From a virus, in IMG/VR virus record IMGVR_UViG_3300025525_000035, positions 1-23,768 of that record: a stretch of DNA of 23,768 nt. The stretch is one strand, 5' to 3'. Both the position numbers and the translations under genes were made by a program. Each line of letters begins with the position of its first letter. Positions within the stretch are counted from its first letter, which is position 1. Under the pieces are notes generated by a model, which made no database searches, was not told the DNA's origin, and saw only the letters and a list, made by a program, of their open reading frames with translations. Of this stretch, positions 1,713 to 18,205 are shown in pieces.

Positions 1713-2302
1713 ACTACACACTGGCGAAATCCATTGCCGACTACCTGGTCGGCGAGCTGCGCGAACACTGCCTGCCCGGTTTCTGCCAGGTGGCGGGCGG
1801 GCTGCGGCGCGAAAAGGCCGACGTGCACGACATCGAGATTGTGTGCATTCCGGCCCCTGGCATGCCGCGACCGGAATTCGGGCAAAAGCGCATCTTTACC
1901 AGCTACCTCGACCTGGCGCTTTACCGCCTGGAGTGTGCCGGTCGGCTGGGCCGGCGGGAGAAAGACGGTCCCAGGCAGAAACAAATCGCCATCAACCTGG
2001 ATTCCTTCGGCGTCCGGACGGCTGACCGCTTCTTCCTCGACCTGTTCATCGTCAGGCCTGAGACCTGGGGAATTCAGTTCACCTTGCGCACCGGCCCGGA
2101 CGTTTTCAGCCGCAAATGCGTCACCCCACGCCGGAACAAAGGCTTCCTGCCAGACGACTGCGAGTACATCCGGGGAGAAACCCGCATCGAGCGCTCAGGG
2201 GAAACCGTTCCCCTGCCTGACGAGGAAAATTTTCTTGACCTGCTCGGTCTTGGCTGGATAGAGCCGCGCGACCGGGCGGCATACGTGGAGGCTCACTCAT
2301 GA
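1709..2302 (+). CDS. DNA polymerase beta-like nucleotidyltransferase
   Basis: This 197-residue protein resembles the phage branch of the Pol-beta nucleotidyltransferase superfamily. The glycine-containing motif AGGLRREK lies at residues 29-36, followed by D41-x-E43 in VHDIEIV, which corresponds to the first metal-binding acidic pair (Asp-x-Glu rather than the usual Asp-x-Asp). A later acidic residue, D111 in LDLFIV, is the likely third ligand. The segment after it (RPETWGIQFTLRTG, then FSRKC) is typical of phage proteins annotated as polymerase X-like. The protein is about the size of a palm/fingers unit only, so it is probably a gap-filling or end-modifying enzyme and not a replicase. The start at 1709 is preferred to an upstream in-frame ATG at 1658 because AAGGAG precedes it and it overlaps the helicase stop. 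It sits in the replication operon. Confidence 0.8.
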   Translation: MNYTLAKSIADYLVGELREHCLPGFCQVAGGLRREKADVHDIEIVCIPAPGMPRPEFGQKRIFTSYLDLALYRLECAGRLGRREKDGPRQKQIAINLDSFGVRTADRFFLDLFIVRPETWGIQFTLRTGPDVFSRKCVTPRRNKGFLPDDCEYIRGETRIERSGETVPLPDEENFLDLLGLGWIEPRDRAAYVEAHS

Positions 2303-2760
2303 AAACTGGAATGCACCTGCCGCTCCTGGGGCTTTTTTGCATCCTGGCAATTGCCATACTTGGCAGCGCCTGGAGATACACCCGCACCGAAATCGCAATT
2401 GCCAGCCTGGCCGCCGAATCGGTAGGGGCAAGCCTGCCAAGCGGCTGGATGGCGATGGGCGAGGTTGGCACGTTTTGGATTGTCAAGGCAATTCTTGGCT
2501 CCCTGCTGGCAGGAGCCGGCACAGCCATTGGCCTGAAGTTCTGGAATGCCTGGAAAAAGAAAAACCGCCAAGGCACATGGGCCCCCGGCCCCAACGCGCA
2601 ATACCAACGACAACCACCAGCCCCCAAGGGCGTGAGCGAGAACGAGCTTTACCGGATGATGCTGTACCAGCAAATGACACAAAATGGCGCGCGGCCTGCA
2701 AAACGACCTGCGCAGAACGGGATGGTGAACGATGAGGATGAACCGGAGATTGTTTTTTAG
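2299..2760 (+). CDS. Small two-TM membrane protein
   Basis: This 153-residue protein has two clear hydrophobic segments, at about residues 6-23 (LPLLGLFCILAIAILG) and 55-80 (a glycine-rich stretch ending in TAIGLKF). A lysine-rich stop-transfer sequence (WNAWKKKNRQG) follows. The last 60 residues are hydrophilic, rich in Pro, Gln and Asn, and probably cytoplasmic. GGAGG precedes the ATG by a good distance, and the ATG overlaps the previous stop. No family is recognised. It begins a run of membrane-associated genes (lipoprotein, then FtsK-like ATPase), so it may be part of an envelope complex with them. The role is unknown; that it is a real gene is well supported by coupling, ribosome site and coherent topology. 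Confidence 0.75.
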   Translation: MKTGMHLPLLGLFCILAIAILGSAWRYTRTEIAIASLAAESVGASLPSGWMAMGEVGTFWIVKAILGSLLAGAGTAIGLKFWNAWKKKNRQGTWAPGPNAQYQRQPPAPKGVSENELYRMMLYQQMTQNGARPAKRPAQNGMVNDEDEPEIVF

Positions 2761-3724
2761 CCTGCCCCTGGCGGGACTGTTCCTGCTGATGATTCTTTCC
2801 GGGTGTGGCGAATCGGCTTTTAGCCCGCCGACGGCCACCCCATTGCCGACAGATATCGGTATTTCCGGCGCAGTTGTTCAACTTCTGGAGCAGGAAGCCT
2901 ACATCCGCCTGACACAGCAATCGATTGACAACCAGCGAATCCAGATGGGCGCGATTATGACGGCGACCCAGATGGTCATCGACGCCACAGCAACACAGCA
3001 AGCCCGCAGCGACAACGCCACCGCAACCGAGCGCTCAGCGCAAATTACAGCCCAGGTCTGGCAGGTTACGGTGGATGCAGCCAAAGCCAATGACGCTGCG
3101 ACACAGCAGGCCCAGGCCACCGGCACCGCTGTCTATCACCAGGGCGTGACCGCGACAGTCGCCGCCGGCGCAACTGCGACCACCGAATACAAGACCCAGA
3201 TGGCCCCCATCTGGAAGGCCGACGAACAGGCCGCCGAGGCGCGCGCCACGAAAGCCGGAATTGAACTGCGCCAGGCGCAGGCCACGGAAATGGTCGATGC
3301 CTGGTGGTTGTACATCCTGGTTTTTGTCCTGGCGATTGCCTTCCTGTACTTCCTGTGGAAAAAGTCTCAGGTCGGCGTGATCCTCGACGAACGCGGCCGG
3401 CTGCGCCTGGTGATGGTCGGCCAGACGGCTCTCAACCCCGACCTGATGTTTCGCCCGGTGATGGATTTCCGGGACGAGCAGATAAAGGCGCCGCGGCTGG
3501 ATGTGCCGGATGATACCCAGCGGCAGATTACGCACGAAGCCAAGATTGTCGATGCCATCGCCATGCTTCCGCCGGGTGGCTACAACCGCCAGGGCGTTGG
3601 CCTGCTGGGAGGCATGGTCAACCAAAACCAACCCGGGGCAGTCAACATCCAGGTTGTGCAACCGGGGCAAATGGATGGTATCCGGCGCGAACTTGACGCA
3701 AAACTATCCGAGGAGGACGAATGA
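2732..3724 (+). CDS. Lipoprotein with second TM segment and cytoplasmic tail
   Basis: This 330-residue protein has a basic N-terminus (MRMNRR), a hydrophobic core at about residues 8-22, and a lipobox LSGC with C25 as the predicted lipidated residue. A PPTATPLP linker follows. Residues of about 45-185 are rich in Ala, Thr and Gln and look like a long extracytoplasmic helical stalk with imperfect TAT/QQA repeats. A second membrane helix at about 191-210 (WWLYILVFVLAIAFLYFLW, then KK) returns the chain to the cytoplasm, leaving a globular tail of about 120 residues that ends in acidic residues. A lipid-anchored N-terminus combined with a C-terminal cytoplasmic domain is an uncommon layout. The Thr/Ala/Pro linker style recalls Chloroflexota lipoproteins. 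The gene overlaps its neighbours on both sides, coupling it to the FtsK-like ATPase. The function is unknown; an envelope component of a DNA-transfer or exclusion system is an inference. Confidence 0.75.
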   Translation: MRMNRRLFFSLPLAGLFLLMILSGCGESAFSPPTATPLPTDIGISGAVVQLLEQEAYIRLTQQSIDNQRIQMGAIMTATQMVIDATATQQARSDNATATERSAQITAQVWQVTVDAAKANDAATQQAQATGTAVYHQGVTATVAAGATATTEYKTQMAPIWKADEQAAEARATKAGIELRQAQATEMVDAWWLYILVFVLAIAFLYFLWKKSQVGVILDERGRLRLVMVGQTALNPDLMFRPVMDFRDEQIKAPRLDVPDDTQRQITHEAKIVDAIAMLPPGGYNRQGVGLLGGMVNQNQPGAVNIQVVQPGQMDGIRRELDAKLSEEDE

Positions 3725-5109
3725 ACAGGGATTACTACACCGAGGCCGTCGTGGCAGCCGAAACCCTGGTCGCCGTAATGACACAAGACCTGCGGCTGCA
3801 GGCTCCCACGCAATACTACCTGGACCCGACAGGCGAGCGGGTCTGGTTGATCGCCGTTCTCGACCCGCGCGCCCTGGGCGGTCAAATCACCGCTTATATC
3901 CGACCGCAAACCCTGCACCAGCTCTCGACCGCATTGGGAGGCCGGCCGGTCATCCTGAGCAACCACACCGGCCTGCGTTATGGCATCCTGATGAGCGAAA
4001 AGCCCAAACTGCCGTTTCCCGTGAACTACCCGGAAGACATTCCCCTGGGGACGGTCCCGCTGGGGCGCACGCTCACCGGCTCACTGCACCCCCAGGCATC
4101 GAAGCTGATGAATGTACTGGTCGGCGGCGAACAGGGCAGCGGCAAGAGCACGCTCCTGCACCTGTTCGCCTACGCGGCCTACCAGAACGGCTGGCAAACC
4201 TACGCAGCCGACCCGCGCTCGATGACCTTCGATGAAACCTGGAACGGCATCCTGCGCGCCCCGGTGGCGGACAAAGTCGAGGGCGTCTTCAATATCCTGG
4301 ATATCCTCGACCGCGAGATGGAGCGCCGGGCATCCCTGTTTCGCTCAGCGCGAGGAGAAGGCGCACTTCCCGCCGGCAGCATCGACGCCTACAACGCGAT
4401 AGCCGGGCAGGAAGAGAAACTACCGCGCGTTTTCTTCCTTGTGGACGAGGCCAACACCTTTCTTGCGAATGACAGGCTGCAAAAGCGGGTCGAGGACTTG
4501 AGCAGACAACCGCGCAAGTTCGGGATTCACTTCGTGCTGGCCGGGCACAACTGGCGGGATGCGGATGTATCTCGCGGCTTGTCGGCCAATTTTCATACAC
4601 GCATTAGCCTGCGCGTCGCCGACGACACCAGCGGGCGGGTTGTACTCAACAATCCGCGCTGGGGCAAGGCGATGATGAAGGTTACACAACCCGGACGCGC
4701 AGTGGTCTTCCTGGATGGCCGCTTTACCCGCACACAGTTCTACCGTTTGGATGATGAGCGGATTATCCAGATGCTCCTATCCGGTTCGGGACCCGCGCCG
4801 GCACTGAGCGATAAGGAGCGAGAGCTGGCCGGGCGTGCCATTCGGGAAACTGACGGGAAAATCAGCCGGGAGGTGCTCACAGGCTGGGGATATGGGCGAT
4901 CAGAAGCCGACCGCATCATGGAGCGATGGACGGCCCGAGAGTGGGCCGAGAAGGATCCGCAGCGAGCAAACGCAACCTACATCACACAGATTCTGCGGGA
5001 TTTGCTGCGCAACCCCGCAGCCCCCGCAACCCACCGCAGCCCCCCCGCAGCCCCCGCAACCGGGCCGACAACCCTGACAACCGGCACTACAACCCCCGAG
5101 GCGACCTGA
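3721..5109 (+). CDS. FtsK/HerA-like DNA translocase ATPase
   Basis: This 462-residue protein has an N-terminal domain of about 110 residues followed by a RecA-like motor. Walker A is GGEQGSGKST at 135-144 and Walker B is VFFLVDEAN at about 237-245. A GIHFVLAGHNW segment and a VADDTSGRVVL segment follow, as in FtsK, SpoIIIE and TraB/HerA-type pumps that move double-stranded DNA. Residues of about 345-400 (ELAGRAIRETDGKISREVLTG) look like a small winged-helix domain similar in placement to FtsK gamma. The C-terminus is a Pro/Ala/Thr-rich tail encoded by a duplicated 18-bp DNA unit. No TM helix is present, so membrane recruitment probably comes from the two membrane proteins encoded immediately upstream. 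It is distinct from the packaging terminase encoded later. The role in DNA transfer or segregation is inferred. Confidence 0.85.
   Translation: MNRDYYTEAVVAAETLVAVMTQDLRLQAPTQYYLDPTGERVWLIAVLDPRALGGQITAYIRPQTLHQLSTALGGRPVILSNHTGLRYGILMSEKPKLPFPVNYPEDIPLGTVPLGRTLTGSLHPQASKLMNVLVGGEQGSGKSTLLHLFAYAAYQNGWQTYAADPRSMTFDETWNGILRAPVADKVEGVFNILDILDREMERRASLFRSARGEGALPAGSIDAYNAIAGQEEKLPRVFFLVDEANTFLANDRLQKRVEDLSRQPRKFGIHFVLAGHNWRDADVSRGLSANFHTRISLRVADDTSGRVVLNNPRWGKAMMKVTQPGRAVVFLDGRFTRTQFYRLDDERIIQMLLSGSGPAPALSDKERELAGRAIRETDGKISREVLTGWGYGRSEADRIMERWTAREWAEKDPQRANATYITQILRDLLRNPAAPATHRSPPAAPATGPTTLTTGTTTPEAT
5013..5060 (+). repeat. Duplicated 18-bp unit encoding Pro/Ala tail
   Basis: The unit CCCCGCAGCCCCCGCAAC occurs at 5013-5030 and again at 5043-5060, with a partial copy (CCGCAGCCC) between them, a period of 30 bases. 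It lies inside the 3' end of the FtsK-like gene and encodes its low-complexity Pro/Ala tail. It probably arose by slippage and may vary in copy number. Confidence 0.7.
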
Positions 5110-5110
5110 C

Positions 5111-5647
5111 ATGGCACACGGACGCACACACAACAAAGCCAATGCCGTGTTGACCATCGCAGTCGGCGCGGCGGGCCTGGTCACAGGCTTACCCGCCGAC
5201 CAGTCCCTGGCTCTCGCCCTGGGCGTGGCCACGGGCTTCCTGGTCAACCCAGACCTGGATGTGGAAGGCGGGAGTATCGCCTTCGACAATGCCCGGCGGA
5301 CTGCTGGCGGACTGTTTGCCTTCGCCTGGCGACTGCTCTGGCTGCCCTATGCCCGCTTCATCCCGCATCGCTCTTTTTGGAGCCATGCGCCCATCCTCGG
5401 CACGGCTGGCCGGGTCATCTACCTCGGCTTGTTGGCCTGGCCAGCTTGGCCTTTTATTCCCTGGGGCGTCATCCTGCCCTGGCTGATGCCGGCCCTGCTC
5501 GGGCTGGCGCTCTCCGACCTGGTTCATTGGATATTGGATATGAAAACTTTCAAAATATTTCAATTGTGGTGGCGCGGCGTGTTTTGGTTCGCCGTCCTGC
5601 CAATGCTGCTGGGCCTGCTGGCCTGGTGGCTGCTGATAGGGAGATAG
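5111..5647 (+). CDS. DUF2227-type putative metal-binding membrane protein
   Basis: This 178-residue protein matches from memory the pattern of the DUF2227 family (uncharacterised metal-binding membrane proteins, common in cyanobacteria and Chloroflexota). It begins with the GRTHNKAN motif containing H3 and H7, has NPDLD with D48 and D50 near the end of the first hydrophobic hairpin, then WLPYARFIPHRSFWSHAP with H86 and H92, and D136/H139 in SDLVHWILD. About four membrane segments surround these conserved residues, as in the YdjM-like membrane-bound metal-dependent hydrolase group. The enzymatic activity of this family is not established to my knowledge. The ATG follows the FtsK-like stop by one base. 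It adds another membrane protein to this early cluster. Confidence 0.8.
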   Translation: MAHGRTHNKANAVLTIAVGAAGLVTGLPADQSLALALGVATGFLVNPDLDVEGGSIAFDNARRTAGGLFAFAWRLLWLPYARFIPHRSFWSHAPILGTAGRVIYLGLLAWPAWPFIPWGVILPWLMPALLGLALSDLVHWILDMKTFKIFQLWWRGVFWFAVLPMLLGLLAWWLLIGR

Positions 5648-5650
5648 AAC

Positions 5651-5872
5651 ATGCCTTATTGCGATATTCACCATAGCGAGAATTGCGAATGCCACGACCG
5701 ATCCTGCCCTTGCGGATGCGGACGTGACGAAGGTAAGCCGCCGACAGGCCCGTGTGTTTATGATGCCCCAGCAGACATCCAAGAAATCACTATAACGTAT
5801 CACGGTGTCACCCCTGAACAGGTAGAACGGGTAATTGCAGAGCAAATACTCAAGGCGCATGGGCGCATCTAA
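5651..5872 (+). CDS. Cys-rich mini-protein, probable zinc-binding
   Basis: This 73-residue protein has seven cysteines in its first 35 residues (C4, C12, C14, C19, C21, C23, C35) and histidines at 7, 8 and 15. The arrangement (CDIHHSENCECH, then CPCGCG) suggests one or two bound zinc ions. The second half (residues 40-73) looks like a small alpha/beta unit with VTPEQVERVIAEQIL. A GGGAGA-like ribosome site precedes the ATG, three bases after the previous stop. No family is recognised. Small zinc proteins in phage early regions often bind nucleic acid or host proteins, but nothing here decides that. It is the last gene before the 229-bp repeat-rich gap. Confidence 0.65.
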   Translation: MPYCDIHHSENCECHDRSCPCGCGRDEGKPPTGPCVYDAPADIQEITITYHGVTPEQVERVIAEQILKAHGRI

Positions 5873-6101
5873 TGTGGTGGGACAGAGTTTTGGTGGAAGA
5901 AAATCAAGTCCCACCAGGCCGTTTTTATTGCCCACCAGGCTCCCACCACTTCCCACCACCCCGTAAAAAATACCCCATTTCTGCCGGGTGGAGGGTGGTG
6001 GAAAGGGGGGCGGGGCGACTGTCGTCCACCAAAACAAAGACGAACAGTGGACATTTATCAGACTCTCAGCAGACTTCTGCAAGACTCAAAGGAGCACTTC
6101 A
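5873..6101. promoter_or_regulatory. Repeat-rich intergenic control region (TCCCACCA family)
   Basis: This 229-bp gap carries TCCCACCA at 5909-5916, 5941-5948 and 5951-5958, a near copy GCCCACCA at 5930-5937, and the reverse complement TGGTGGGA at 5875-5882. An 11-bp inverted pair, GTTTTGGTGGA at 5887-5897 and TCCACCAAAAC at 6025-6035, encloses most of the gap. A G-rich stretch (GGGTGGAGGGTGGTGG) lies at about 5986-6001 and a run of G at about 6005-6010. An in-frame ATG at 5988 would extend the next gene through this region, but AAAGGAG at 6088-6094 supports the start at 6102. I see no convincing -10/-35 pair. It probably binds a regulator or replication protein. Confidence 0.6.
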
Positions 6102-6914
6102 ATGACGACCTTTATCAACTTCAAAAACTTCTTGTGGCTTGTGTATGCCGGCGTTCTGGTGGTCATCACCCCGCACACGCAATGGATGTTCGCACAGCTC
6201 GAACCGCCCGACCTTCCCGGATTGTCCTGGGTGATAGCGGTGGTTGTCGAGGCGGCCATCTTTGGCCTGACCCACAGGTTGGTTCACCACATCGAAGCCC
6301 GCCGGCTGACGACCTTCAACTTTGAACGCCAACGCATGAAAGATGGCCGGTTCTCGAGATACTTCACCTGGTGGCCGATCTTCGCATACCGCTACCTGAA
6401 CATCTATTCGTTCGGCCTGGCCTTGTTCGTGCTGCTTTCGGGCGCAGCGAACCTTACCCATGCTTTCGAGTATGGCCGGCCTCCGAAAATTGTCAACGAA
6501 TGGGGAATCCCGTTTGCCTTCTATACGTTGGCATTTGGAGCGGTTCTCCCAGTGATGAACCTGGTGTTCGCAGCGGTGCTGGCCCAGATGGACGACGCCG
6601 AACAACAGGGCGACCCCGAATTGGACAAGGCGAAAGCCGAAAAGCGTGAAGCCGAAAAGCGCGCCAGGGAACTCGAACGCCAACTGGCCGACACCGAACG
6701 CCGGCTTGATGAAAGCGAAAAACGCTATCATGCCGTCGGCGATGTTGTCGTCTACCTGTTCGGCACGGAGCGCGCACTGGGCGAACGCATTCGCTATGTG
6801 CGCCGGACGTTCCCGCAGCTGTCCCAGAACGGCATCAGCCAGATTTTGGGCTGTTCGGTCTCGACTGTGAATGAAGCGCTTAAGCACTACGAAGTGGAAG
6901 CAATTGATGTGTAA
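6102..6914 (+). CDS. Four-TM membrane protein with coiled coil and C-terminal HTH
   Basis: This 270-residue protein has four hydrophobic segments at about residues 9-30, 41-62, 100-120 and 135-162. They are followed by a highly charged coiled coil at about 165-212 (KAEKREAEKRARELERQL) and a C-terminal helix-turn-helix at about 240-262 (SQNGISQILGCSVSTVNEAL). The fourth helix leads directly into the coil, which would place the HTH in the cytoplasm. The membrane part, with its LSGAANLTHA motif, recalls the DUF2637/Spd-type proteins of actinobacterial plasmids; this is resemblance, not a confirmed match. The start is ATG 6102, chosen over ATG 5988 because AAAGGAG lies seven bases upstream. A membrane-tethered DNA-binding protein next to a repeat-rich gap may anchor or regulate that DNA. 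Confidence 0.75.
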   Translation: MTTFINFKNFLWLVYAGVLVVITPHTQWMFAQLEPPDLPGLSWVIAVVVEAAIFGLTHRLVHHIEARRLTTFNFERQRMKDGRFSRYFTWWPIFAYRYLNIYSFGLALFVLLSGAANLTHAFEYGRPPKIVNEWGIPFAFYTLAFGAVLPVMNLVFAAVLAQMDDAEQQGDPELDKAKAEKREAEKRARELERQLADTERRLDESEKRYHAVGDVVVYLFGTERALGERIRYVRRTFPQLSQNGISQILGCSVSTVNEALKHYEVEAIDV

Positions 6915-8874: not shown

Positions 8875-9078
8875 CTGTGAAAATGCCCAGCCGGGGCTGT
8901 GAAAAGCCTGTGAAAACTCAAAAAGGGTCTGTGAAAAAGTGAAAAAGGGCTTGTGAAAAAGTGAAAAACCAATTTCGGGTTTGTGAAAACCACAAGAGAT
9001 AGATTGCCACTGGCTGTTTGCCGGCTGTGAAAACTCGAAAACCGGTGAAAACCCGGGCGGGTACTGATGTTTTCACAG
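8875..9078. repeat. Phased GTGAAAA iteron-like array
   Basis: Direct copies of GTGAAAA begin at 8877, 8899, 8910, 8931, 8939, 8953, 8961, 8983, 9027 and 9045. Five are preceded by CT and two by TT. One inverted copy, TTTTCACAG, is at 9070-9078. Many gaps are 22 or 11 bases (8877-8899, 8899-8910, 8931-8953, 8939-8961, 8961-8983) or 44 (8983-9027), and one is 21. That places the motifs on one face of the helix, as in plasmid and phage iterons. Confidence 0.75.
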
Positions 9079-9156: not shown

Positions 9157-9216
9157 GCCACTGTCACTTTTGACACTGTCATTTTCGCCACTGGCATTTC
9201 TGCCACTGTCATTATT
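9157..9216. repeat. Four tandem 15-bp repeats upstream of the late operon
   Basis: Exactly four 15-base units run head to tail: GCCACTGTCACTTTT, GACACTGTCATTTTC, GCCACTGGCATTTCT and GCCACTGTCATTATT. They lie between the terminator and the first late gene. A TTGACA hexamer follows at 9215-9220, but no matching -10 is evident. They may bind an activator of late transcription. Confidence 0.75.
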
Positions 9217-9294: not shown

Positions 9295-9744
9295 ATGCAA
9301 ACACTCAAATCGTTGAACTGGAACTGGTCGGCCATCGTCGCTGCGCTATTTGCCCTTGGCATTGTGACGACCAACGAGCCAGAGATAGCCGCCATCTCTA
9401 TCGCCGGCATGCTGGTTGTGACCCTGCTGAACTTCCTGGCGCGCAGCTTCGGCGTCCGTGTCGGCGCGGGCTGGCTGTCCATTGGCTTATACGTCGTCTC
9501 GACCATCCTGGCTTATTTCCTGAACCCCATTGCGCTGCCGGCTTTCCCCGCCTACCCCGGCGACCCGGTGACATTTGCCCAGGCTATTGCAGAGCTTATC
9601 CAGCAAACAGCTCCGCTCGCTGCCACGCTGACTGCCTCGGCCACCCTGGCCTATAACGCGCTCAAGCCGCTGGTCTTCGACAAGTACCTGCCGGCAGTCG
9701 AGCCGCCGACAGCCAGCCCGCGCGTAGACGAAACCGTCGGGTAG
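9295..9744 (+). CDS. Small multi-TM protein, possible holin
   Basis: This 149-residue protein has hydrophobic segments at about residues 10-25, 31-50 and 58-77, with a weaker one near 105-125. A hydrophilic C-terminus (VEPPTASPRVDETVG) follows. AGGAG lies six bases before ATG 9295. In-frame ATGs at 9256 and 9067 lack such a site, and the latter would run through the terminator. Size and TM count fit holins, but no endolysin is in the window, so the role is not settled. It opens the late operon, directly before another membrane protein and the terminase genes. Confidence 0.65.
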   Translation: MQTLKSLNWNWSAIVAALFALGIVTTNEPEIAAISIAGMLVVTLLNFLARSFGVRVGAGWLSIGLYVVSTILAYFLNPIALPAFPAYPGDPVTFAQAIAELIQQTAPLAATLTASATLAYNALKPLVFDKYLPAVEPPTASPRVDETVG

Positions 9745-9752
9745 GCACCGCC

Positions 9753-10094
9753 ATGCCAGAAGTTCCCGTCTCGGTCTGGGACCAAATCCCTGTCATTGTC
9801 ATTTTTGCTTTGCTGCTGGGCGGGCTCGGCTGGCTGCTTGTAAAAATCTTTTCGAAGACCATCTCCGAAATCAACGCCCATTACGCGCAAATCATTCAAA
9901 CCACGAATGAGCAGTGGCAAAAATACTTCGATGCCCGTTCCGAGGTCAACCAGGTTGTGAGCAACCAGGTTATCTCGCAACTTGAAGGGCTGACAAAAGC
10001 CGTTGAGAAGCTCGCCAAAGACCTGGAAGCCCACGACCAAAGGGACCGGCAGGAAGAGCATTACCGGAGAAGTTCAAGAAGGAAACCTTCATGA
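9753..10094 (+). CDS. Single-TM protein with coiled-coil tail
   Basis: This 113-residue protein has one N-terminal membrane helix at about residues 13-32 (IPVIVIFALLLGGLGWLLV) and then a long hydrophilic, heptad-like region (EINAHYAQIIQTTNEQW to EKLAKDLEAHDQRD), ending in a basic tail (RRSSRRKPS). The layout resembles the XhlA-type holin partners and other phage membrane-coil proteins, without a diagnostic motif. The preceding gene ends eight bases upstream; its stop overlaps the next start. Together they form a small envelope-associated block at the head of the late operon. Confidence 0.65.
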   Translation: MPEVPVSVWDQIPVIVIFALLLGGLGWLLVKIFSKTISEINAHYAQIIQTTNEQWQKYFDARSEVNQVVSNQVISQLEGLTKAVEKLAKDLEAHDQRDRQEEHYRRSSRRKPS

Positions 10095-10432
10095 CACTCA
10101 AGCTGACCGTACTTGCCCCAGTCGTCAATATTCGCCGAGGCATCGGCAACGCCGCCGGCGGCATCCTGCGCCAGGCGCGCATCGGCGAGCAGTTTGATGC
10201 CGTCCAGGTTATCGATACCCCGAAGTCGGTAGAGCAGTGGGCCAAGGTCATCCTACCCGACCAACTGAACGCCGACGCCTACGTTTGCATCAAACTGCCC
10301 AACGGGTCGGCACTCTGCCAGGTGTCGGCTGTCCCGACGCAGGTCGGCGACGCGAAATACCAGGAAGGTTTCCGGGACGGCGTCGAGCACGTGCTGCGCT
10401 GGGTCTCGGCGGAAAGGGCCAAACTTGGATAG
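10091..10432 (+). CDS. SH3b-like domain protein
   Basis: This 113-residue protein starts with a beta-rich segment resembling bacterial SH3 domains: LTVLAPVVNIRRGIGNAAGGIL, here the VNIRRGIG turn being the key feature, then GEQFDAVQVID, QWAKVIL and AYVCIKLPNGSALCQV. The VN-IRxGxG and WxKV pattern is characteristic of SH3b domains that bind peptidoglycan or peptides. The second half (residues 85-113) is a helical extension, KYQEGFRDGVEHVLRWVS. No signal peptide is seen. Neighbours are two membrane proteins upstream and terminase downstream, so an envelope or lysis role is possible but not shown. Confidence 0.55.
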   Translation: MTLKLTVLAPVVNIRRGIGNAAGGILRQARIGEQFDAVQVIDTPKSVEQWAKVILPDQLNADAYVCIKLPNGSALCQVSAVPTQVGDAKYQEGFRDGVEHVLRWVSAERAKLG

Positions 10433-17689: not shown

Positions 17690-18205
17690 ATGCACTCACG
17701 AATTTATGCAGAACGATTTGACCTGGCGCTCAAGAAGCTGGCCGACGCGGTGGAAAAACTGGCCGAAAGGGGCCTGGTGCAGGCTGAGCCGATGCCGGTC
17801 GAGCGCGACCCGCGCATTCTGGAACTTCGCCGGCTGGAATATGCCGCCGATGTGTTGGGCCAATTGGCCGAAAACGATGGCTTGACGGTTGTGGAGACCG
17901 AAGTTGAACAGCTTGACGAGCCGACCGGCGAACCTGAAGGCGAACAGCCTGACAAGCCGGCTGGCGAATCCGAAGGCGAAAAGGCCGACGAGCCGACCGG
18001 CGAACCCAAAGGCGAAGTGCCTGACGAGCCGACCGGCGAACCCGAAGGCGAAGTGCCCGAATCTGCTCCAGCAGAAGGTGATTCTCCCGCGGTCGATGAT
18101 ATCGCCGCTATGGAAGCCGAAATGGCCGACGAGCCGACCGGCGAAGCCGAAGTGCCCAAATCCAAAAGGGCATCGAAGGCGGCCAAGGCTGGCAAGGAAG
18201 GCTGA
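17690..18205 (+). CDS. Acidic protein with tandem 12-residue repeats
   Basis: This 171-residue protein has a helical N-terminus (FDLALKKLADAVEKLAERG) and a repeat region of four 12-residue units at residues 76-123: DEPTGEPEGEQP, DKPAGESEGEKA, DEPTGEPKGEVP and DEPTGEPEGEVP. A shortened copy (DEPTGEAEVP) lies at about 147-156. The C-terminus is basic (KSKRASKAAKAGK). It is immediately downstream of the capsid gene and its hairpin. It is likely a disordered, acidic accessory of the head or connector. No known family. The DNA encoding the repeats (17915-18058) is a true tandem array with a 36-bp period. Confidence 0.65.
   Translation: MHSRIYAERFDLALKKLADAVEKLAERGLVQAEPMPVERDPRILELRRLEYAADVLGQLAENDGLTVVETEVEQLDEPTGEPEGEQPDKPAGESEGEKADEPTGEPKGEVPDEPTGEPEGEVPESAPAEGDSPAVDDIAAMEAEMADEPTGEAEVPKSKRASKAAKAGKEG
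17915..18058 (+). repeat. Tandem 36-bp repeats (4 units) encoding an acidic repeat
   Basis: Four 36-bp units run from 17915 to 18058, each encoding DEPTGEPEGExP-like sequence, and a truncated copy occurs about 70 bases further on. Length variation by slippage or recombination is expected. They lie inside the acidic protein gene after the capsid. Confidence 0.8.

Follow-up and report, generated by a model that had tools for sequence, protein, structure and literature searches.

A three-gene module with an FtsK-like ATPase and a direct-repeat array in Chloroflexota phages and plasmid-like elements: a candidate duplex-DNA transfer system

Conjugation that moves duplex DNA without a type IV secretion system (T4SS) has been described mainly in actinomycetes. 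The module analysed here, a three-gene operon ending in a direct-repeat array, is carried by a linear viral fragment (record IMGVR_UViG_3300025525_000035; the window is the whole record, 23,768 bp), whose host is assigned from its relatives. TraB of Streptomyces, which moves duplex DNA without a T4SS (PMC3583192, PMC3218068), binds clt, a set of 7-9 bp direct repeats, via a C-terminal winged helix, as found for TraB of pSVH1 (PMC3583192), and in pWTY27 the clt repeats overlap the 3' end of traA (PMC3583192). The TraB/clt systems of Streptomyces plasmids and of actinomycete integrative and conjugative elements (AICEs) share with the module a single FtsK-family motor with a C-terminal winged helix (predicted in the module), a motor gene whose 3' end has short direct repeats (as in pWTY27), accessory membrane proteins, integrases and Rep proteins encoded alongside, and the lack of a recognised relaxase or T4SS (PMC3583192, PMC3218068). 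Unlike TraB, the motor of the module has no N-terminal transmembrane (TM) segments; it is partnered not by Spd proteins but by an upstream protein with two TM segments (2-TM protein) and by a lipoprotein; its hosts are Chloroflexota, in which it is also found on tailed phages; and its fixed linker code has no counterpart in the clt literature compared. By this comparison, the module may be TraB-like in its working without being a member of the TraB/Spd system.

Other described pumps are related to parts of the module. TcpA, the coupling protein of plasmid pCW3, provides the closest solved fold and the best sequence match in the PDB, but no VirB4-type system or classical relaxase was found on the contigs that carry the module, and the motor of the latter has no TM domain. 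FtsK and SpoIIIE have a homologous motor and a C-terminal gamma domain to which that of the module bears a likeness, whereas the module's motor is 460 aa long and not 700-900, has no 4-TM N-terminus, belongs to separate clades of the motor tree, and is accompanied by a localised repeat array instead of dispersed FtsK-orienting polar sequences (KOPS). TdtA of the Thermus element ICETh1 (transjugation) is likewise a DNA-pushing ATPase of a mobile element, hexameric and independent of a T4SS (PMC5365140); it works together with a nuclease resembling NurA and with a restriction enzyme. No gene for either was seen near the trio among those examined, and the abstract of PMC5365140 mentions no repeat array.

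The conserved three-gene unit and its distribution

The conserved unit is a three-gene operon encoding, in order, a 2-TM protein, a lipoprotein with a TM helix and an FtsK-family ATPase, the first two genes overlapping by 29 bp and the last two by 4 bp (ATGA). A five-gene module had been described at this locus from the DNA of the window (hereafter the original prediction); all the genes that it listed were found where it placed them, and the first three do form a conserved unit, but the DUF2227 and TM-helix-turn-helix (HTH) genes that follow are accessory. According to simple scans for TM segments and lipobox motifs, the lipoprotein has, outside the cytoplasm, a helical region of ~165 residues with a high content of A, T and Q; a TM helix connects it to a cytoplasmic tail of ~120 residues. 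Its homologues have an outer region of 129-213 residues with the same bias, a TM helix and an inner tail of 120-150 residues, and the lipobox Cys is invariant in 18 of 18 of them, down to ~20% identity. The structure model of the lipoprotein (predicted local distance difference test score, pLDDT, 59) consists of two long helices and is too weak for use beyond helix content. Neither this protein nor the 2-TM protein matched any Pfam or NCBIfam family.

The close relatives of the module are in a 50-kb phage (G003, locus L003) and in a provirus within a contig of a Chloroflexi metagenome-assembled genome (MAG; G002, locus L002). Identities to the window in L003 and L002, respectively, are 84% and 74% for the ATPase, 74% and 50% for the lipoprotein, and 62% and 33% for the 2-TM protein, which also has a homologue at the same position in locus L006 (38%). 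The structural genes of G003 and G002 are unlike those of the window, and because both genomes carry large serine recombinases, both are taken to integrate. The proposal that the window itself is a phage-plasmid was not borne out: no partition gene is visible in the 23,768-bp fragment, and these two close relatives integrate.

Beyond the window, the trio was found in two more temperate phages, in a pair of probable phage-plasmids and in dozens of Chloroflexota elements that are plasmid-like or integrated; all of the relatives' loci come from MAGs or viral contigs, and related genomes are non-independent samples. Gene order is the same in the window, G003, G002, L006, L022, L023 and L026, and is kept in other Chloroflexota loci at 30-34% ATPase identity. 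Among 19 held-out loci, which lay outside profile building, a lipoprotein gene is upstream of the ATPase gene in all 19 (not directly adjacent in one), and a hidden Markov model (HMM) of the 2-TM protein, tm2, placed that protein upstream in 16. The predicted link between the ATPase and its membrane partners holds for all close relatives, with few exceptions among the distant ones, and the trio recurs, in order, in other phages and plasmid-like elements of Chloroflexota. Scans of viral contigs with L022 and L006 as queries found no new phages.

Partition genes adjoin the trio in 15 of the 19 held-out loci, as ParM (PF17989) with a small protein resembling the ribbon-helix-helix (RHH) family or as ParA with RHH; ParM or ParA is directly downstream in these 15, and a tyrosine recombinase is nearby in 8 of the 19. 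The actin-like ALP_N and RHH families were confirmed next to the trio. No Par homologue was found in the phages (the window, G003 and G002). Two contigs are probable Chloroflexota phage-plasmids: G710:C436 (L085, L098) encodes a replication initiator, ParM, RHH, the trio, capsid E, a Mu-like protease and a tape measure in one direction, and G738:C149 combines ParM and the trio with a terminase and a D5 primase. An association of such modules with plasmid-like elements and phage-plasmids, as originally envisaged, is thus supported among the relatives. None of the contigs tested has terminal repeats and none was circularised, so plasmid status rests on gene content. The search for classical conjugation machinery covered two families: PF03432, the only relaxase family among them, was detected in none of 26 genomes, and no trio contig had VirB4 (PF03135). 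One plasmid-like contig with the trio and ParM (L092, G510:C253) carries a cargo of NB-ARC, WD40 and several TPR genes that is possibly defence-related.

The motor and the repeat array at the 3' end of its gene

The ATPase (462 aa) is divided into an N-domain (residues 1-105), a motor (106-350), a predicted winged helix (~360-430) and a disordered tail (433-462), with Walker A (GEQGSGKS) at residue 136 and Walker B (FLVDE) at residue 239. It matches PF01580 (FtsK_SpoIIIE) above the cut-off (E 6.5e-9), and its best sequence match in the PDB is TcpA (E 6e-8). Its AlphaFold model, made with ten aligned homologues (pLDDT 81), retrieved TcpA first in Foldseek (E 2e-20), followed by FtsK of Escherichia coli and Pseudomonas aeruginosa (4e-18 and below), with HerA (E 9e-7) and EccC far behind. 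In profile comparisons the motor aligned with host FtsK (hhalign, E 1e-51) and the ATPase with Tra of pIJ101 (E 8e-13). Of the FtsK/HerA-like identity originally predicted, the FtsK part therefore stands and the HerA part does not. In a motor tree, host FtsK is a separate clade with the lineages of the module motors outside it, deep branches being unresolved. In a comparison of 396 genomes of the class, only profile positions ~109-347 were matched by host FtsK proteins, within frames of 700-900 aa, and about twenty genomes have full-length ATPase homologues of 430-500 aa. Apart from isolated single hydrophobic calls, ATPases of the family have no TM segments.

Several known kinds of pump were considered and rejected. 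A chromosomal FtsK translocase is at odds with the length of the protein, its lack of TM segments and the separate clade of host FtsK; a phage terminase, with the separate gene for the large terminase subunit (TerL) and the FtsK-like best matches. The pump is thus neither a packaging motor nor a chromosomal FtsK, in line with the original prediction. A HerA-NurA pair was discarded on the far weaker match to HerA, no NurA being seen among the neighbours examined, and EccC of type VII secretion systems because the protein has only one ATPase domain, EccC models scored far below cut-off and the partners have no NCBIfam match. The C-terminal domain aligns modestly with the gamma domain of host FtsK (hhalign P 1.2e-4, probability 56%), and in the model its helices (364-377, 383-388, 393-405) and strands (409-411, 419-421) fit a winged helix.

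The array, which is absent from the observations of the original prediction, was found by a blind scan for clustered 8-mers, which revealed repeats at the 3' ends of ATPase genes in several elements. In the window, the repeats start at 5007, 5015, 5024, 5034, 5045 and 5054, with degenerate copies at 5066 and 5075, and lie in DNA that encodes the disordered C-terminal tail. Within a test region reaching from 120 bp upstream to 90 bp downstream of the stop codon, at least five repeats are present at 19 of 30 ATPase 3' ends in the discovery set and 15 of 26 in the held-out set, versus 18 of 592 control gene ends; an 8-9-10 bp spacing is present at 10 of 30 and 8 of 26, respectively, versus 0 of 592 (Fisher 1e-14 and 3e-12). 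The motifs differ among elements (CCGCAACC, CAACAACC, TACCAACC, GTCAAACC, GACGAACC, CCTCAAGG, GGTCACAC and others). The linker code 0-1-2-3-1-4-1 is identical in the window, G003, G002, L006 and the held-out L151, where it is carried by three motifs (CCGCAACC, CAACAACC and TACCAACC); in L022, L136, G460C224 and L146 the opening of this frame fits and the fifth slot is degenerate, and elsewhere the later linkers vary (0-1-2-2-2-1-4 in G519, 0-1-2-1-2 in G710:C428). The constraint is concluded to act on DNA, since the arrays of several elements extend past the stop codon and about half of the spacings do not correspond to whole codons; a protein-level cause (a low-complexity tail) was rejected on the same grounds. 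At the 3' end of a second, very divergent FtsK-like gene in another contig (G460:C557 6442-7959, L088; E 9e-4) there are nine 8-bp repeats, which suggests that the array principle reaches beyond this ATPase family.

It is the winged-helix domain that the array motif appears to track, not the motor or the partition genes. Between L006 and the window, which have the same linker code, identity is 26% in the motor and 61% in the winged helix; G470:C1017 and G510:C253 share the motif GACGAACC with 19% and 55%, respectively; and GTCAAACC accompanies ParM in L022 and L160 and ParA in L162. A partial Mantel test of motif against winged helix, given the motor, yielded 0.36 (p 5e-4) for the full set.

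A possible transfer mechanism and its rivals

It is quite probable that the trio is a self-recognising, membrane-linked pump for double-stranded DNA (dsDNA). The winged helix of the ATPase would read the 8-bp repeats that end its own gene, as suggested by the array, the domain itself and the TraB precedent, with a repeat geometry that is fixed and a repeat sequence that is specific to the element. The motor would then form a hexamer on the array DNA and pump duplex, as its fold implies. To judge from topology, the 2-TM protein and the lipid-anchored lipoprotein may bring the TM-less motor to the membrane, and the long outer helix of the lipoprotein might extend into the envelope or towards a partner cell. 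Duplex DNA of the element could finally enter another cell, neither a relaxase nor type IV secretion being needed, as in TraB/clt, which in phages would be a second, capsid-free route of spread. The chances that the trio is a membrane-anchored dsDNA translocase selecting its own element for transfer from cell to cell are evenly balanced, as are those that such transfer is the purpose of the pump; the alternative purposes are septal segregation, a serious rival in view of the partition and recombinase neighbours, or the clearing of dimers. More tentatively, the module may be a dsDNA transfer system of a kind not described before, independent of a relaxase, which belongs to mobile elements of Chloroflexota, is also present on tailed phages and would let the genome of a prophage or phage-plasmid pass between cells as naked duplex without a capsid.

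Several observations weigh against the proposed mechanism. The C-terminal domain has no match to Pfam FtsK_gamma, and its alignment with gamma is modest; the ATPase, in contrast to TraA of pWTY27, is devoid of TM segments; about one third of the ATPase genes have no strong array; and three Streptomyces tra plasmids, scanned for repeats as a positive control, were too GC-rich to be informative and gave no clear signal near tra. The partial Mantel test becomes borderline (p 0.057) after removal of near-duplicates. Because the winged-helix domain and the array are neighbours in the DNA, their co-inheritance could be physical and not functional, and cannot by itself prove binding. Segregation would explain the partition genes and recombinases that neighbour the module in plasmid-like elements just as well.

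Segregation at the septum, by which the trio would be an element-encoded FtsK working within one cell, held at the division site by its membrane proteins, clearing element DNA from the septum or resolving dimers with a neighbouring Xer-type recombinase and cooperating with ParM or ParA, is rather unlikely. The frequent ParM, ParA and tyrosine recombinase neighbours and the closeness of the motor to FtsK and TcpA speak for it, but in the phages (the window, G003 and G002) both trio and array are present and no Par homologue was found, G002 and G003 having large serine recombinases; FtsK uses dispersed polar sites, and the window motif outside the array is unbiased (1 plus, 3 minus); and the extracytoplasmic helix of the lipoprotein would be superfluous for such a task. 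ParR-type RHH proteins bind tandem repeats, and the array is just 5' of parM or parA in many elements, the usual place of parC, so it could instead be a parC-like centromere of the neighbouring ParM/RHH or ParA/RHH system, its location at the ATPase gene end being incidental. This is improbable, given that arrays with the same code end ATPase genes without any Par gene (the window, G003, G002 and L170), that GTCAAACC is found with both ParM and ParA, and that ParM is more than 4 kb distant in G710C428 and the Par gene is on the other side of the trio in G658C100.

The structural match to TcpA, together with the fact that tyrosine recombinases can act as relaxases, would also fit a coupling protein of a T4SS, unrecognised or host-encoded, that exports single-stranded DNA with an unusual relaxase; with VirB4 and PF03432 not detected as described above and no TM domain in the ATPase, this is very unlikely. 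A superinfection-exclusion or defence module, in which an envelope-associated pump would act on incoming DNA, is at least as doubtful: a membrane protein and a lipoprotein in temperate phages, and weak PADLOC matches of the motor to mads_8 and SspH, agree with it, but these matches span the FtsK-type motor only, no defence partner genes are present, and the self-addressed array and the plasmid distribution would be left unexplained.

If duplex transfer is the function, the module points to an independent or very divergent version of T4SS-free conjugation in another phylum, on phages, phage-plasmids and plasmid-like elements. The array makes this proposal testable, since each element names the site of its motor in a fixed geometry, and natural domain swaps allow predictions of the repeat sequence that a given motor reads. 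It also bears on how FtsK-type motors are loaded onto DNA, and could allow self-transmissible elements of uncultured Chloroflexota to be recognised from sequence.

Accessory genes and phage context

The features of the window are listed in Table 1. The DUF2227 and TM-coil-HTH genes were rejected as core parts, each being common to only one of the two close phage relatives: the former is 70% identical in L003, and both are absent from L002. The TM-coil-HTH protein matches no Pfam family above cut-off, and homology to SpdB was rejected (E 17 against SpdB of pIJ101). The proposed resemblance to TraB/Spd systems therefore fails on the Spd side, and the clt-like array independently supports the TraB analogy.

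Table 1. Positions of the module and of other features in the window
Feature	Coordinates	Strand	Basis or remarks
2-TM membrane protein with cytoplasmic tail, first trio gene	2299..2760	+	same-position homologues in relatives
Lipoprotein	2732..3724	+	lipobox Cys25, second TM near residue 190
FtsK-family dsDNA-translocase-like ATPase, no TM	3721..5109	+	Pfam, AlphaFold, Foldseek
Predicted winged-helix region of ATPase, ~residues 360-430	4798..5010	+	hhalign, model
Direct-repeat array, consensus CCGCARCC, candidate clt-like recognition locus	5007-5092	+	linkers 0-1-2-3-1-4-1(-2)
DUF2227 membrane protein, accessory	5111..5647	+	PF09988 E 2.9e-20
Four-TM, coiled-coil, HTH protein, accessory	6102..6914	+	80% identical in L003
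Iterons TGTGAAAA	8876..9033	+	seven same-strand copies, spacing 22, 11, 21, 22, 30, 44 bp
TerL	11062-12576		gene separate from ATPase gene

The left part of the window encodes DnaB, a polymerase-beta-like protein (a weak match), the trio and neighbouring genes, and the right part holds the structural genes of a siphophage (TerL, portal, head proteins, major head protein and tape measure), which bears out the siphophage context originally claimed. The iteron-like repeats of that prediction are likewise present: TGTGAAAA occurs in 8 copies versus 0.65 expected, the eighth being an inverted copy at 9070, and possibly marks an origin or an operator. As a feature common to the relatives these iterons were rejected, with no clustering in any relative.

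Four 15-bp repeats (GCCACTGTCATTTTT-like) at 9157-9216 are 5' of a conserved gene for a small membrane protein, the true start of which is probably near 9295. Three small genes, two of them encoding membrane proteins, precede the terminase pair (9295-10432); G003 has kept all three and G002 the first and third, despite the differing structural genes of the three phages. The gene at 17690-18205, adjoining that of the major head protein, contains an in-frame 36-bp repeat (4.3 copies, 17898-18052) and encodes a Glu/Pro-rich repeat protein.

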